From positions 1-36,519 of the forward strand of contig CAJFNV010000002.1 in NCBI GenBank assembly GCA_904395805.1: a stretch of 36,519 nucleotides of DNA. The letters are read 5' to 3'. Each line of letters opens with the position of its first letter. Positions within the stretch are counted from its first letter, which is position 1. The DNA is from Candidatus Gallispira edinburgensis (lineage in GTDB: Bacteria; Bacillota; Clostridia; Lachnospirales; CAG-274). The notes beneath the pieces were generated by a model, which was not told the DNA's origin, did no database searches, and saw only the letters and a list, made by a program, of their open reading frames with translations. Positions 9,379-22,907 of the stretch are shown here, piece after piece. A program made the position numbers and the translations under genes.

Positions 9379-10755
9379 TTATTTATCGACCCTAGGCAAT
9401 TTGGCAAGACTTACTGCAATTTCCTCATCAGTAGGAATATTGTCACTCATAACACCGTCATTAAACTTTTCATAAGCCACCATATCAAAATATCCTGTAC
9501 CTGTAAGTCCGAAAAGTATAGTCTTTTCTTCATTGTTTTCCCTGCACTTAACAGCTTCATCAATAGCCACCTTTATAGCATGAGCACTTTCGGGAGCAGG
9601 AAGAATTCCTTCAATTCTTGCAAAATACTCAGCAGCCTTGAATACATCTGTCTGCTGTACGGAAACAGCTTCCATAAGTCCGTCATCATAAAGCTGAGAA
9701 AGAGTCGAACTCATACCATGGTATCTTAATCCGCCTGCATGATTTGCAGAAGGTATAAAGTCACAGCCCAGTGTATACATTTTAGCCAGAGGACAAACCA
9801 TACCTGTATCACAGAAATCATAGGCAAACTTGCCTCTTGTAAAGCTTGGGCATGAAGCAGGCTCAACAGCAATAATTCTGTAGTCGGCTTCCCCTCTTAA
9901 CTTTTCACCCATAAAAGGAGATATAAGACCGCCAAGATTAGAACCGCCTCCTGCACAGCCAATAATAACATCAGGCTTGACGCCATATTTATCAAGAGCT
10001 GTTTTTGACTCAAGACCTATAACAGACTGATGCAAAAGCACCTGATTGAGCACACTTCCCAGCACATATCGGTAACCTTCTGACTTTGTAGCCTTTTCAA
10101 CTGCCTCTGATATAGCACAGCCAAGGCTTCCTGTAGTACCCGGATGTTCTGCAAGTATCTTTCTTCCTATTTCCGTTTCCATAGAAGGAGAAGGAGTGAC
10201 AGATGCGCCGTAAGTACGCATTACTTCCCTTCTGAAAGGCTTCTGTTCATAAGAAACCTTTACCATATACACCTTGCAGTCCAGATCAAAATAAGAACAA
10301 GCCATTGAAAGAGCTGTACCCCACTGACCTGCACCTGTTTCTGTTGTAACACCTTTAAGTCCCTGTTTCTTGGCATAATATGCCTGAGCTATTGCAGAAT
10401 TAAGTTTATGACTTCCGCTTGTATTGTTTCCTTCAAATTTATAATATATCTTTGCGGGAGTCTGAAGTTTCTTTTCAAGACAGTATGCCCTTACAAGAGG
10501 TGAAGGTCTGTACATTTTATAAAACTCACGAATTTCCTCAGGTATTTCAAAATAAGCGGTAGTATCATCCAGTTCCTGCTTAATAAGCTCATCACAGAAC
10601 ACAGGAGCAAGTTCTTCCGCCTTCATAGGCTCAAGTGTACCGGGATTTAAAAGGGGAGCAGGCTTATTTTTCATATCTGCCCTCATATTGTACCAAGCCT
10701 TTGGCATCTCGTTTTCTTCAAGGTAAATTTTGTAGGGAATTTTCTTTTCTGACAT
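9379..10755 (-). CDS. trpB: Tryptophan synthase beta chain, type 2 (TrpB2-like)
   Basis: The 458-residue PLP enzyme condenses indole with serine to give tryptophan. The PLP lysine lies in GSHKLNSA (K117), and the phosphate-binding glycine loop is GCAGGGSNLGG. The N-terminal extension (PKAWYNMRADMKNKP) and the length match the TrpB2 class (TIGR01415), not the 390-400 residue TrpB1. The ATG at 10755 follows AAAGGAG. No trpA or other trp gene is nearby, so the enzyme may salvage free indole instead of working in a TrpAB complex. A tryptophan-type T-box controls it. Confidence 0.93.
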   Translation of the reverse strand: MSEKKIPYKIYLEENEMPKAWYNMRADMKNKPAPLLNPGTLEPMKAEELAPVFCDELIKQELDDTTAYFEIPEEIREFYKMYRPSPLVRAYCLEKKLQTPAKIYYKFEGNNTSGSHKLNSAIAQAYYAKKQGLKGVTTETGAGQWGTALSMACSYFDLDCKVYMVKVSYEQKPFRREVMRTYGASVTPSPSMETEIGRKILAEHPGTTGSLGCAISEAVEKATKSEGYRYVLGSVLNQVLLHQSVIGLESKTALDKYGVKPDVIIGCAGGGSNLGGLISPFMGEKLRGEADYRIIAVEPASCPSFTRGKFAYDFCDTGMVCPLAKMYTLGCDFIPSANHAGGLRYHGMSSTLSQLYDDGLMEAVSVQQTDVFKAAEYFARIEGILPAPESAHAIKVAIDEAVKCRENNEEKTILFGLTGTGYFDMVAYEKFNDGVMSDNIPTDEEIAVSLAKLPRVDK

Positions 10756-10784
10756 AATTTTGTCTCCTTTCTTTTTGGGACAAA

Positions 10785-11055
10785 TAAAAAACCTGTCCCA
10801 GATCAATATTAGTAATCTGCTGGGACAGGATAATTTCAAAATTCCTGCGGTGCCACCCGGCTTGGTGTACAATACACCCACTCAATGCATACCATCATAT
10901 GCTGACCTTTGATTACGGAGAGCCGCTCCGTCGCCCATACTAAAATTTCAGGTTGCCCTCAGAAGCCCATTCAACTTTATGTGATCACTGTGTCACACCA
11001 CCCCACAGCTCTCTGGAGATCAGGTATAAAGCCTACTCACTCTTCCTCATCGGTT
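10785..11055 (-). promoter_or_regulatory. T-box riboswitch, probably tRNA-Trp responsive
   Basis: The minus-strand leader carries the T-box sequence CGGGTGGCACCGCAGG (10860-10844). A strong terminator follows: CTGGGACAGG against CCTGTCCCAG at 10820-10829 and 10792-10801, with a U-tract at 10791-10785. Stem I elements (GAGTGAGTAGGC and CCAGAGAGCTG) lie upstream. The putative specifier region reads GTTGAATGGGCTTC, containing TGG, the Trp codon. This agrees with the downstream trpB. The T-box class is certain; the exact specifier position is inferred without folding. Confidence 0.92.
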
Positions 11056-11061
11056 TAGTGT

Positions 11062-21079: not shown

Positions 21080-21203
21080 GGTTCAACAATTTTTAGTGTT
21101 GTTAATTTTATTCTCTCTGTTTACAACTCCCGCACTGGTCCTTTGTAAGATCAATGCTGTCAACTTAAAGGATCAGCATAAACCTAACTGTTTAAAAAGG
21201 CGG
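21080..21203. repeat. Dispersed intergenic repeat, copy B
   Basis: This is the diverged second copy of the repeat at 9227-9351, in the same orientation and also ending in AAAAAGGCGG. No coding capacity is visible in 20942-21200. Confidence 0.7.
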
Positions 21204-21515
21204 CGTGCCCGCCCTTCAGAACTTTTGACTGTTCAGCACTTTCATCTCCGCTGAAAGCCGCACTATGTGCGTCCGGCTATTCTGCCGGTGGCAAATGTCA
21301 AAAGCGACACTTCGTGTCGGCAAATATTCTTTTGCTTCAAACTTGGCTCCTTTGTAAAGGAGCTGTCAGCGCATTCAGCACTTTCAGCCAAAGGCTGAAA
21401 GCCATCCTAACGGATGTCCGCATAATTCTTGCGGTACAGTGCTGTCTGAGGATTTTTTTCCTAACACTTCCAACTCAGCAAATGCTTGCGTATGCGAAGC
21501 ATCAATTTTTTCCGT
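21195..21515. repeat. Block of tandem short hairpins
   Basis: At least seven short inverted repeats stand in a row: GCACTATGTGC, CCGGC/GCCGG, CGACAC-TTC-GTGTCG, CTCCTTT/AAAGGAG, CTTTCAGCC-AAA-GGCTGAAAG, CATCC/GGATG, CCGCA/TGCGG and a stem in ATGCTTGCGTATGCGAAGCAT. GGCTCC...GGAGCTGTCAG and a later CTGTCTGAGGATT resemble the two ends of a known style of clostridial palindromic repeat, with other hairpins between them. No gene is supported. Confidence 0.65.
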
Positions 21516-21540
21516 TAAACCACACATTTGGCAAAGACCA

Positions 21541-21601
21541 AAAAAAAGCAAAAAAATAGCTTGCTATCCATAATACTTTCGTAAAACAGATAACAAGCTA
21601 T
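21541..21601 (-). terminator. Strong minus-strand intrinsic terminator closing the ORF-less transcript
   Basis: A 13-bp stem with one G-U pair joins GATAACAAGCTAT (21589-21601) and ATAGCTTGCTATC (21556-21568). On the minus strand it is followed by seven T, GC and seven more T. No gene ends here, so the transcript it ends must come from the promoter near 22880. Confidence 0.8.
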
Positions 21602-22850
21602 CTTATTGAATCTTCAGTAAACATTTTAACTCGCTTTCTTTAATTAATAGTTAATAGTAACTTTTTTACGTTTGATTAATTAATCTCCTCTGACATTTAA
21701 GTCTTAATTAACCATCACAATATTTAATTTTACTTTTTTAGATTTACAATTATCAAGTGTTAAAATTGAAACCCTTTAATCCGATCCTTTTATTCAGGTA
21801 TCAACATTTTAGAATCATCAAATACTAGCATATCTTACTCTACCTTGTCCGGAACTAATATTATTTCTTATCTTAAATATTGACTCCAAACTTCAGAATC
21901 TTATTTTACAGGATTTTAATGGTTATATTTTTTTACCATTTATTTTACAGCTTTTCTAATTTATAAATCTTATAAACATTCACATTTCATCAAACTTTAA
22001 AGCTTCTTTTATGAAAATATTTATTACCTATAAACTTCAATTTCCTATGACAACTTAAGTAATATTAATATAACTATTTACTTCTTACACTAACACCACT
22101 TTTAATTAACTAAATGACTAACCTTCTCAATACCCCAATTATAATTAATTAACCTTCATATTAAATTTACTTTATAAATATTAAGCTTTGAAATTTATCA
22201 CATTAAACTTTAATATAAGATATCTTTACAATATTTCTATTATATAAATTTCTTTTATTATAAATTTAACTTGATCTTAACTTTATCATTTCTGATTTTG
22301 TTATTGATTTCTTTTCTTAAATATTTACAAATCTTTAAATATTTTCATTACTTAAATCTTTAGAATTCGCTTTATGTAAATATTTATTTTTAATTCTGAA
22401 TCTTCAACATCATATATTTTTAATCCGACAATATTCAAATCAAAATTTAAACCTTATCTGATTTTTTTAATATATCAATGTTTCAGATTTTTGATTTTAA
22501 ATTATAAGAGTTAAAGCAGATATTAAACATCATTTTTATTATAACACTTATTCTTACTTCTTCTCTGCTAATTTATAAATCATTTTAACATTTACGTACA
22601 CGGTCTAACTTTTACATCCTTACCATCTATGTAAACATTTCCTGGTCGTTATAACTTCTTCAACTGTAAACTATATATGCTAATTTCTACACTGATTTTT
22701 AACATTTATTTTTCATAACCAACTTTAAAAAGAATCATTGTCAATCTCTTAATGTCAAATACTTTTGTAAATGTTACAGTTAAAAAGTTATAAGACTAAT
22801 TTTCTCTCTTTGGCGGAACCCACTCCCTTCTTTAAATTTTGTTTTGTTAT
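21602..22850 (-). other. Extreme AT-rich, ORF-less transcription unit: candidate long ncRNA or decayed gene
   Basis: A hand count of 21601-22800 gives 72 G and 186 C on the plus strand: 21.5% GC and a strong strand skew, far from the neighbouring genes. Stop codons occur in every frame at about the density expected from composition, and no frame is open beyond short stretches. Even so, the unit has a consensus promoter with an operator-like palindrome on one side and a strong terminator on the other, both for the minus strand, giving a transcript of about 1.3 kb. Short protein-like fragments, such as NVYIDGKDVKVRPCT near 22580-22625, leave open the option of a decayed gene. No known RNA family is recognised. 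Confidence 0.5.
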
Positions 22851-22851
22851 T

Positions 22852-22867
22852 ATAACCAATTGGTTAT
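22852..22867. promoter_or_regulatory. Perfect 16-bp palindromic operator
   Basis: ATAACCAATTGGTTAT is fully palindromic and lies about 5-20 nt after the predicted start site of the minus-strand promoter. Size and symmetry fit a MarR-type repressor site. No marR gene lies in the window. Confidence 0.65.
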
Positions 22868-22878
22868 CTTGTATATAT

Positions 22879-22907
22879 ATAATAACCTATAAAACCATTT
22901 TTGTCAA
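22879..22907 (-). promoter_or_regulatory. Consensus promoter reading into the ORF-less AT-rich unit
   Basis: TTGACA (22907-22902), 17 nt, TATTAT (22884-22879) on the minus strand. No coding region follows. Confidence 0.85.

Follow-up and report, generated by a model that had tools for sequence, protein, structure and literature searches.

We report a conserved structured RNA gene of about 1.3 kb on the minus strand of the window, a 36,519-nt stretch of DNA from Candidatus Gallispira edinburgensis, in which the unit runs from about position 22872 to about 21540. That the unit is such a gene appears nearly certain from sequence comparison, because its paired positions covary, it has homologues, and its elements keep a constant order. 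It represents a new RNA family, known to date from a single family of uncultured gut Clostridia, and is neither the mRNA of an ordinary protein nor a pseudogene. The overall reading that we prefer, at a probability of about 0.5, goes further: we infer that the structured RNA is transcribed, docks on the 30S ribosomal subunit and acts in trans as a regulator or decoy, with a micropeptide frame at its end.

The consensus promoter that an earlier note on this DNA had reported on the minus strand (TTGACA-17-TATTAT) was recovered with 11 of 12 consensus bases, and the transcription start is placed at about 22872 from the position of the -10 hexamer. In a promoter scan this was the best of 13 promoter-like sites, and shuffled sequences give 12.7 such sites, so that in such AT-rich DNA the promoter match by itself proved nothing. 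Alignment of 14 copies showed 31 of the first 43 positions to be invariant. The comparison of promoter and body that the note had called for revealed a conserved promoter, first 160 nt or so and 3' end, flanking a middle of variable length. A genome-wide search with the -10 region (TATAGGTTATTATATATA) found no second close match, the next best having two mismatches and being as frequent as in the reversed control, and a regulon shared via this region was rejected accordingly. The 16-bp palindrome described at the start site (ATAACCAATTGGTTAT) is exact in the window copy. In the alignment, conservation is limited to its 6-bp arms, where changes are compensated (ACC/GGT, ACT/AGT); the four central nucleotides are often non-palindromic (TAAA, TACA), and the spacing is lost in the g11 copies. 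Given the compensated arms and often asymmetric centre, the element would be explained at least as well by a 5' hairpin of the RNA as by a repressor site; an operator role is possible.

At the other end, the terminator with a 13-bp stem and double T-tract is present as described when read by eye, having been missed by our scanner because the latter accepts loops of at most 8 nt. Near the 5' end, AGATAAC (22869-22863, minus strand) is complementary to the terminator segment GTTATCT (21594-21588, minus strand). Both are nearly invariant in the genera g1 and g4, the terminator segment even although its own stem partner strand varies. Judging from these letters, a switch pairing of the 5' AGAUAAC with the terminator GUUAUCU could be envisaged in g1 and g4, though not in g11.

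Of the seven genomes in the window's genus, six yielded related units in DNA searches and the seventh, an incomplete one, gave a chance match only; a family-wide search added five further units in a second genus. The resulting 14 units of g1 and g4 share one order of elements in alignment. The exact promoter-plus-palindrome pattern had 14 matches in the species-genome contigs, 13 of them being units and one a chance match inside an unrelated protein-coding gene. A model of the 5' sequence led to G047, a divergent unit of 40% GC in a third genus (g11), and a second model including the P2 and P3 helices led to G046, likewise divergent, of 40% GC and from g11, which was absent from that model. 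This brings the total to 16 homologous units in 13 genomes of three genera. The shortest RNA, that of G003, measures about 410 nt and the longest, that of the window, about 1,310 nt. Outside the family, the first model found no members in 295 genomes of the order, two marginal matches (E 5e-4 and 8.5e-4) aside, and the second found none in 391 genomes of the class; both searches used strict filters, so that weak members could be missed. Further weak matches (G002_C18, G001_C15, G004_C27, G045, G036, G028 and L058) proved to be ordinary promoters or coding sequence. Three genomes (G004, G005 and G006) each hold a second, paralogous copy (L027, L026 and L028) in which the 16S-like motif discussed below takes a variant form, GAAGGGAGUGAGUUGAACCCGGCAGG.

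The 5' domain of the RNA is closed by two nested long-range helices, P2 (GUC-UUAUAACUU with AAGUUAUAA-C-GAC) and P3 (AACUGUAA with UUACAGUU), whose strands change together: GUC/GAC becomes GCC/GGC, UAUAAC/GUUAUA becomes UACAGU/ACUGUA, and G047 has AUUAACC with GGUUAAU. Counted on a model alignment of the 16 copies, which was fitted to the structure and thus favours it, 15 of 20 pairs in P2 and P3 have changes on both sides, 84.6% of cells are paired (70.5% when shuffled, 29-42% when slid, with none of 500 shuffles as good), and the covariation score is 0.347 (0.155 shuffled, 0.05-0.12 slid). For P2 alone, with hand-cut strands and shuffling of partners, none of 20,000 shuffles did as well. In energy folding, the window RNA forms the 5' hairpin as well as P2, P3, P4 and P5, at pair probabilities between 0.84 and 0.97. 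The body of the window copy has a folding z of -6.3 against dinucleotide shuffles (15 shuffles only) and G047 one of -2.8; the bodies of the shorter copies lie between -0.4 and -3.1, several short ones (z -0.4 to -2) being no better than shuffles. The covariance analysis of homologous loci proposed in the earlier note thus yielded compensatory pairs in favour of a structured RNA, and the note's suggestion of a long structured RNA draws further support from folding energy and from the homologues in three genera.

The extra sequence of the window copy, about 650 nt (22620-21972), consists of added hairpins. Internal duplications are discernible as segments of 67 nt at 76% identity (E 2e-8) and 60 nt at 75% (E 3e-5); the P4 strand AGAUUUAUAAAUUAG is part of the 60-nt one. 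The simplest account would be that this copy grew by modular duplication of hairpins.

Features of the unit in the window (positions in the direction of the strand where joined by a hyphen)
Feature	Position	Strand	Basis
-35 hexamer TTGACA	22907-22902	-	promoter scan; invariant in 14 copies
-10 hexamer TATTAT	22884-22879	-	promoter scan; 17 nt from -35
TATAGGTTATTATATATA around -10	22874..22891	-	promoter scan, alignment of 14 copies, genome-wide motif search
Palindrome ATAACCAATTGGTTAT, predicted 5' hairpin (6 bp, 4-nt loop)	22852..22867	-	pair probability 0.97; compensated changes
AAGAAGGGAGUGGGUUCC, complement of 16S rRNA 3' end GGAUCACCUCCUUUCU	22815..22832	-	dG -17.4 kcal/mol, strongest site of the RNA
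P2, 5' strand GUCUUAUAACUU	22785..22796	-	8 of 12 pairs changed on both sides
P3, 5' strand AACUGUAA	22774..22781	-	7 of 8 pairs changed on both sides
Conserved GUGUAGAAAUUAGCAUA	22676..22692	-	identical in G001 and the distant g11 copy G047
P3, 3' strand UUACAGUU	22662..22669	-	covariation count
P2, 3' strand AAGUUAUAA-C-GAC, conserved 1-nt bulge	22645..22657	-	covariation counts
Conserved CAGGAAAUGUUUACAUAGAUG after P2	22624..22644	-	alignment of copies
Expansion region, largest in window copy: extra hairpin modules	21972..22620	-	self-comparison, folding
P4/P5 arm, whole	21740..21970	-	energy folding, copy comparison
Helix P4	21970-21961 with 21749-21740	-	pair probabilities 0.88-0.95 (P4/P5); equivalents in G001, G004a
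Hairpin P5 inside P4, AAUGGU with ACCAUU	21940-21935 with 21923-21918	-	base changes kept paired
GAAAGCGA, ribosome-site-like motif before micro-ORF	21631..21638	-	conserved across copies
Micro-ORF MFTEDSIR* (AUG UUU ACU GAA GAU UCA AUA AGA UAG)	21598..21624	-	equivalent frame in 16 of 16 copies
Intrinsic terminator	21540..21601	-	sequence read directly; stem pair probability 0.95-0.98
Terminator stem strands	21601-21589 / 21568-21556	-	13 bp, 20-nt loop
Terminator T-runs	21556-21550 and 21547-21540	-	sequence read directly

The best-conserved motif inside the RNA, GAAAGGAG-UGA-NNCC and its variants, is a 14-16-nt, near-complete complement of the 16S rRNA 3' end (GGAUCACCUCCUUUCU). Ribosomal RNA operons are often missing from assemblies of this kind; as a search of all seven genomes in the window's genus did not recover the 16S 3' end, pairing energies were calculated with the standard Firmicutes sequence. 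In all 14 RNAs tested the motif is the strongest 16S complement, at -14.7 to -19.7 kcal/mol, and the ribosome sites of 23 genes in the window are all weaker (-5.6 to -13.6 kcal/mol). Shuffled RNAs reached the energy of the motif in 0, 0, 0, 1, 1 and 4 of 60 cases for six copies, the four matches belonging to the G004b/G006b type, in which the motif is also predicted to be mostly paired (0.15-0.17 unpaired). A start codon 4-13 nt downstream of the motif is absent in 10 of 14 copies, including that of the window, and is TTG or GTG in the other four; when read from the alignment, no frame beginning at this 5' ribosome-like site is common to the copies. The sponge RNA suggested in the earlier note can accordingly be narrowed, the conserved element being a complement of the 16S 3' end.

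The claim that no frame can be translated holds for ordinary ORFs, as there is none of at least 80 aa inside the unit, but it overlooks the 8-codon ORF MFTEDSIR* at its end, equivalents of which, seen only across copies, could not have been revealed by a single sequence. Every copy has an AUG and 4-7 further codons just before the terminator, preceded in most by a conserved GAAAGYGA. The predicted peptides are MFTEDSIR, MILDDSIR, MIFDDSIR, MISEDFEG, MIEESMR, MSNDLFM, MIEESK, MIDESK, MIDEVK and MIDESV, and that of G046, read separately from the codon table of the other 15 copies, is MVEFM; all contain an acidic residue. Insertions and deletions occur in 3-nt steps, the stop may be TAA, TAG or TGA, and single-base codon differences number 6, 5 and 11 at codon positions 1, 2 and 3. 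With so small a sample, and a stop that touches or overlaps the stem of the terminator, the micro-ORF is likely, rather than proven, to be coding.

The genomic context, with neighbours named from a reading of their proteins, offers no gene common to all copies. The unit lies about 100 nt after a parC-like topoisomerase gene in G003 and in all five second-genus copies, a position which is probably ancestral; other copies lie after pnp ahead of an aminotransferase gene or beside a pectate-lyase-like gene, and that of the window lies between oadA-like and ttcA-like genes. Relatives are devoid of the RNA at the window's location, as is the window's genome at the aminotransferase site, which dismisses a fixed site beside oadA or the aminotransferase; nor does any neighbour persist across lineages as a candidate partner. 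These differing neighbours and empty sites point to a stand-alone unit that changed place rather than the leader of one operon. A phage or plasmid origin was rejected, there being no meaningful DNA match and no match to the promoter-plus-palindrome pattern in viral contigs. Between the terminator and the ttcA-like gene, positions 21100-21500 form a GC-rich stretch (up to 51%) that contains short inverted repeats, among them CTTTCAGCC-AAAGGCTGAAAG; similar-looking stretches in intergenic DNA of G002 (L029) and G005 (L099) suggest that it is possibly an intergenic repeat family.

A search of the window and seven loci against the 4,227 families of Rfam gave no bacterial family up to E 1, only noise of microRNA models on hairpins, and the G047 locus gave sub-threshold chance matches only. 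Known families such as OLE, ROOL, GOLLD and raiA were therefore discarded at gathering and permissive thresholds alike. A T-box leader was likewise discarded for the unit; the only one in the window lies elsewhere (10818-11059, minus strand; RF00230, 106.9 bits), ahead of a gene for a TrpB-like pyridoxal-phosphate enzyme, named from its protein (9379-10881, minus strand). We found no earlier description of such an RNA in the literature searched, which does not exclude one.

We propose the following course of events. The RNA would begin with a small hairpin followed by the 14-16-nt complement of the 16S 3' end, fold into the P2/P3 and P4/P5 arms with optional extra hairpin modules, and end in an ORF of 5-8 codons and the terminator. 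It would dock through the 16S tail on free 30S subunits and, by contacting the ribosome, serve in trans as a regulator or a decoy; such docking might also promote translation of the micropeptide at its end. The RNA might thereby hold back free 30S subunits, guide them, or load them for the micropeptide. We favour contact with the 30S subunit since no other part inside the RNA is as constant as the 16S complement, and as a mechanism we hold docking tentatively, at somewhat less than even odds. The fullest version, wherein the RNA pairs with nearly the full length of the single-stranded 16S 3' tail, captures 30S subunits in this way with no initiation nearby, couples this to its own 3' peptide of 5-8 aa and varies threefold in size through duplication of hairpin modules, is doubtful, though it merits consideration.

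Among other explanations, the earlier note had raised a repressed gene that decayed recently; in that case its promoter and terminator would have survived. While the AT-rich unit, with its many stops and no ordinary ORF, has the look of such a relic (the window copy has about 22% GC, and the transcribed strand of the body is 44% A, 34% T, 16% G and 6.5% C), no copy in any genome has an ordinary ORF there, and no intact relative turned up in any of them. The body shows no codon periodicity, with a flat composition by codon position. A comparison of six read-through frames with Pfam recovered no family at cut-off, the only match being Phage_TAC_2 at 15.6 bits against a cut-off of 27 and on the opposite strand. 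Together with the compensatory changes that preserve the helices, these results lead us to reject decay, whose residual probability is negligible.

Alternatively, the unit might be an mRNA for the micropeptide, the long folded part being a 5' leader that controls the 5-8-aa peptide as the sole product that matters. The presence of the micro-ORF in all copies, its coding-like substitutions and the GAAAGYGA ahead of it in most would fit, and the extended 5' ribosome site could then be a standby site. However, both the helices and the 16S-like motif are better conserved than the peptide (MIDESV as against MVEFM within one genus), and the leader varies threefold in length; we consider this unlikely. 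We deem it decidedly improbable that the unit is a cis attenuator, in which the terminator would be opened, and the next gene made accessible to polymerase, by a ribosome at the micro-ORF stop or by the AGAUAAC-GUUAUCU pairing. The contact of the stop codon with the terminator stem, the complementarity of these segments in nearly all g1 and g4 copies, and the many co-directional downstream genes are in keeping with it; nevertheless, those genes are unrelated (aminotransferase, lipoproteins, Dus-like, and ttcA-like at a distance of 600 nt), the next gene is convergent in G004b, and the g11 terminators are without GUUAUCU. Finally, the RNA could have some other function, as a protein scaffold or a homo-oligomer like OLE, ROOL and GOLLD, with the 16S-like motif being merely structural. 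This would agree with the modular multi-helix fold, the lack of a protein partner nearby and the predicted pairing of the motif with a distal strand in G047, but the motif remains the strongest 16S complement of each tested copy despite its sequence changes, and we rate this as rather unlikely.

If the preferred reading of a 30S-contacting structured RNA is correct, RNA-based control of free 30S subunits becomes directly testable, and pairing with the 16S tail in the cell would mean that an RNA addresses the ribosome via the Shine-Dalgarno contact itself. The conserved ORF of 5-8 codons would rank among the shortest candidate genes. An RNA confined to one uncultured family, and with so low a GC content in the window, would be passed over as empty DNA; to our knowledge, bacteria have few large structured RNAs, and it was their wide distribution that led to the discovery of most.

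Dual-function regulatory RNAs such as RNAIII and SgrS also hold a small ORF. The new unit likewise contains a small ORF, a candidate with codon-like substitutions and frame-keeping indels, but this has only 5-8 codons and lies at the extreme 3' end, no homology being seen. The extended Shine-Dalgarno sites of Staphylococcus aureus provide a comparably long complement to the 16S tail (PMC13009471), whereas the site in the new RNA is mostly without a start codon at a working distance. The raiA motif RNA, or ModT, is likewise a structured RNA of Clostridia and acts in trans (PMC11706538), but it occurs in more than 2,500 species (PMC11706538), in contrast to the three genera of the new family, which has no match to the raiA Rfam model. 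ROOL and GOLLD share with the new RNA a length of hundreds of nucleotides, a multi-helix fold and the lack of a known protein partner (PMC12286853); their genes lie in phages and prophages, in many cases close to tRNA islands (PMC12286853), whereas the new RNA has chromosomal neighbours, with no match to its pattern in viral contigs and no tRNA in the window. OLE, for its part, has been proposed to sequester the ribosomal protein RpsU, and hence has a link to the 30S subunit (PMC12286853). The new RNA is distinguished from it by its AT-richness, its lack of an Rfam match and of a conserved partner gene beside it, and its 16S complement and terminal micro-ORF; yet both are large structured bacterial RNAs, and by analogy OLE would be the nearest parallel for the proposed contact with the 30S subunit.
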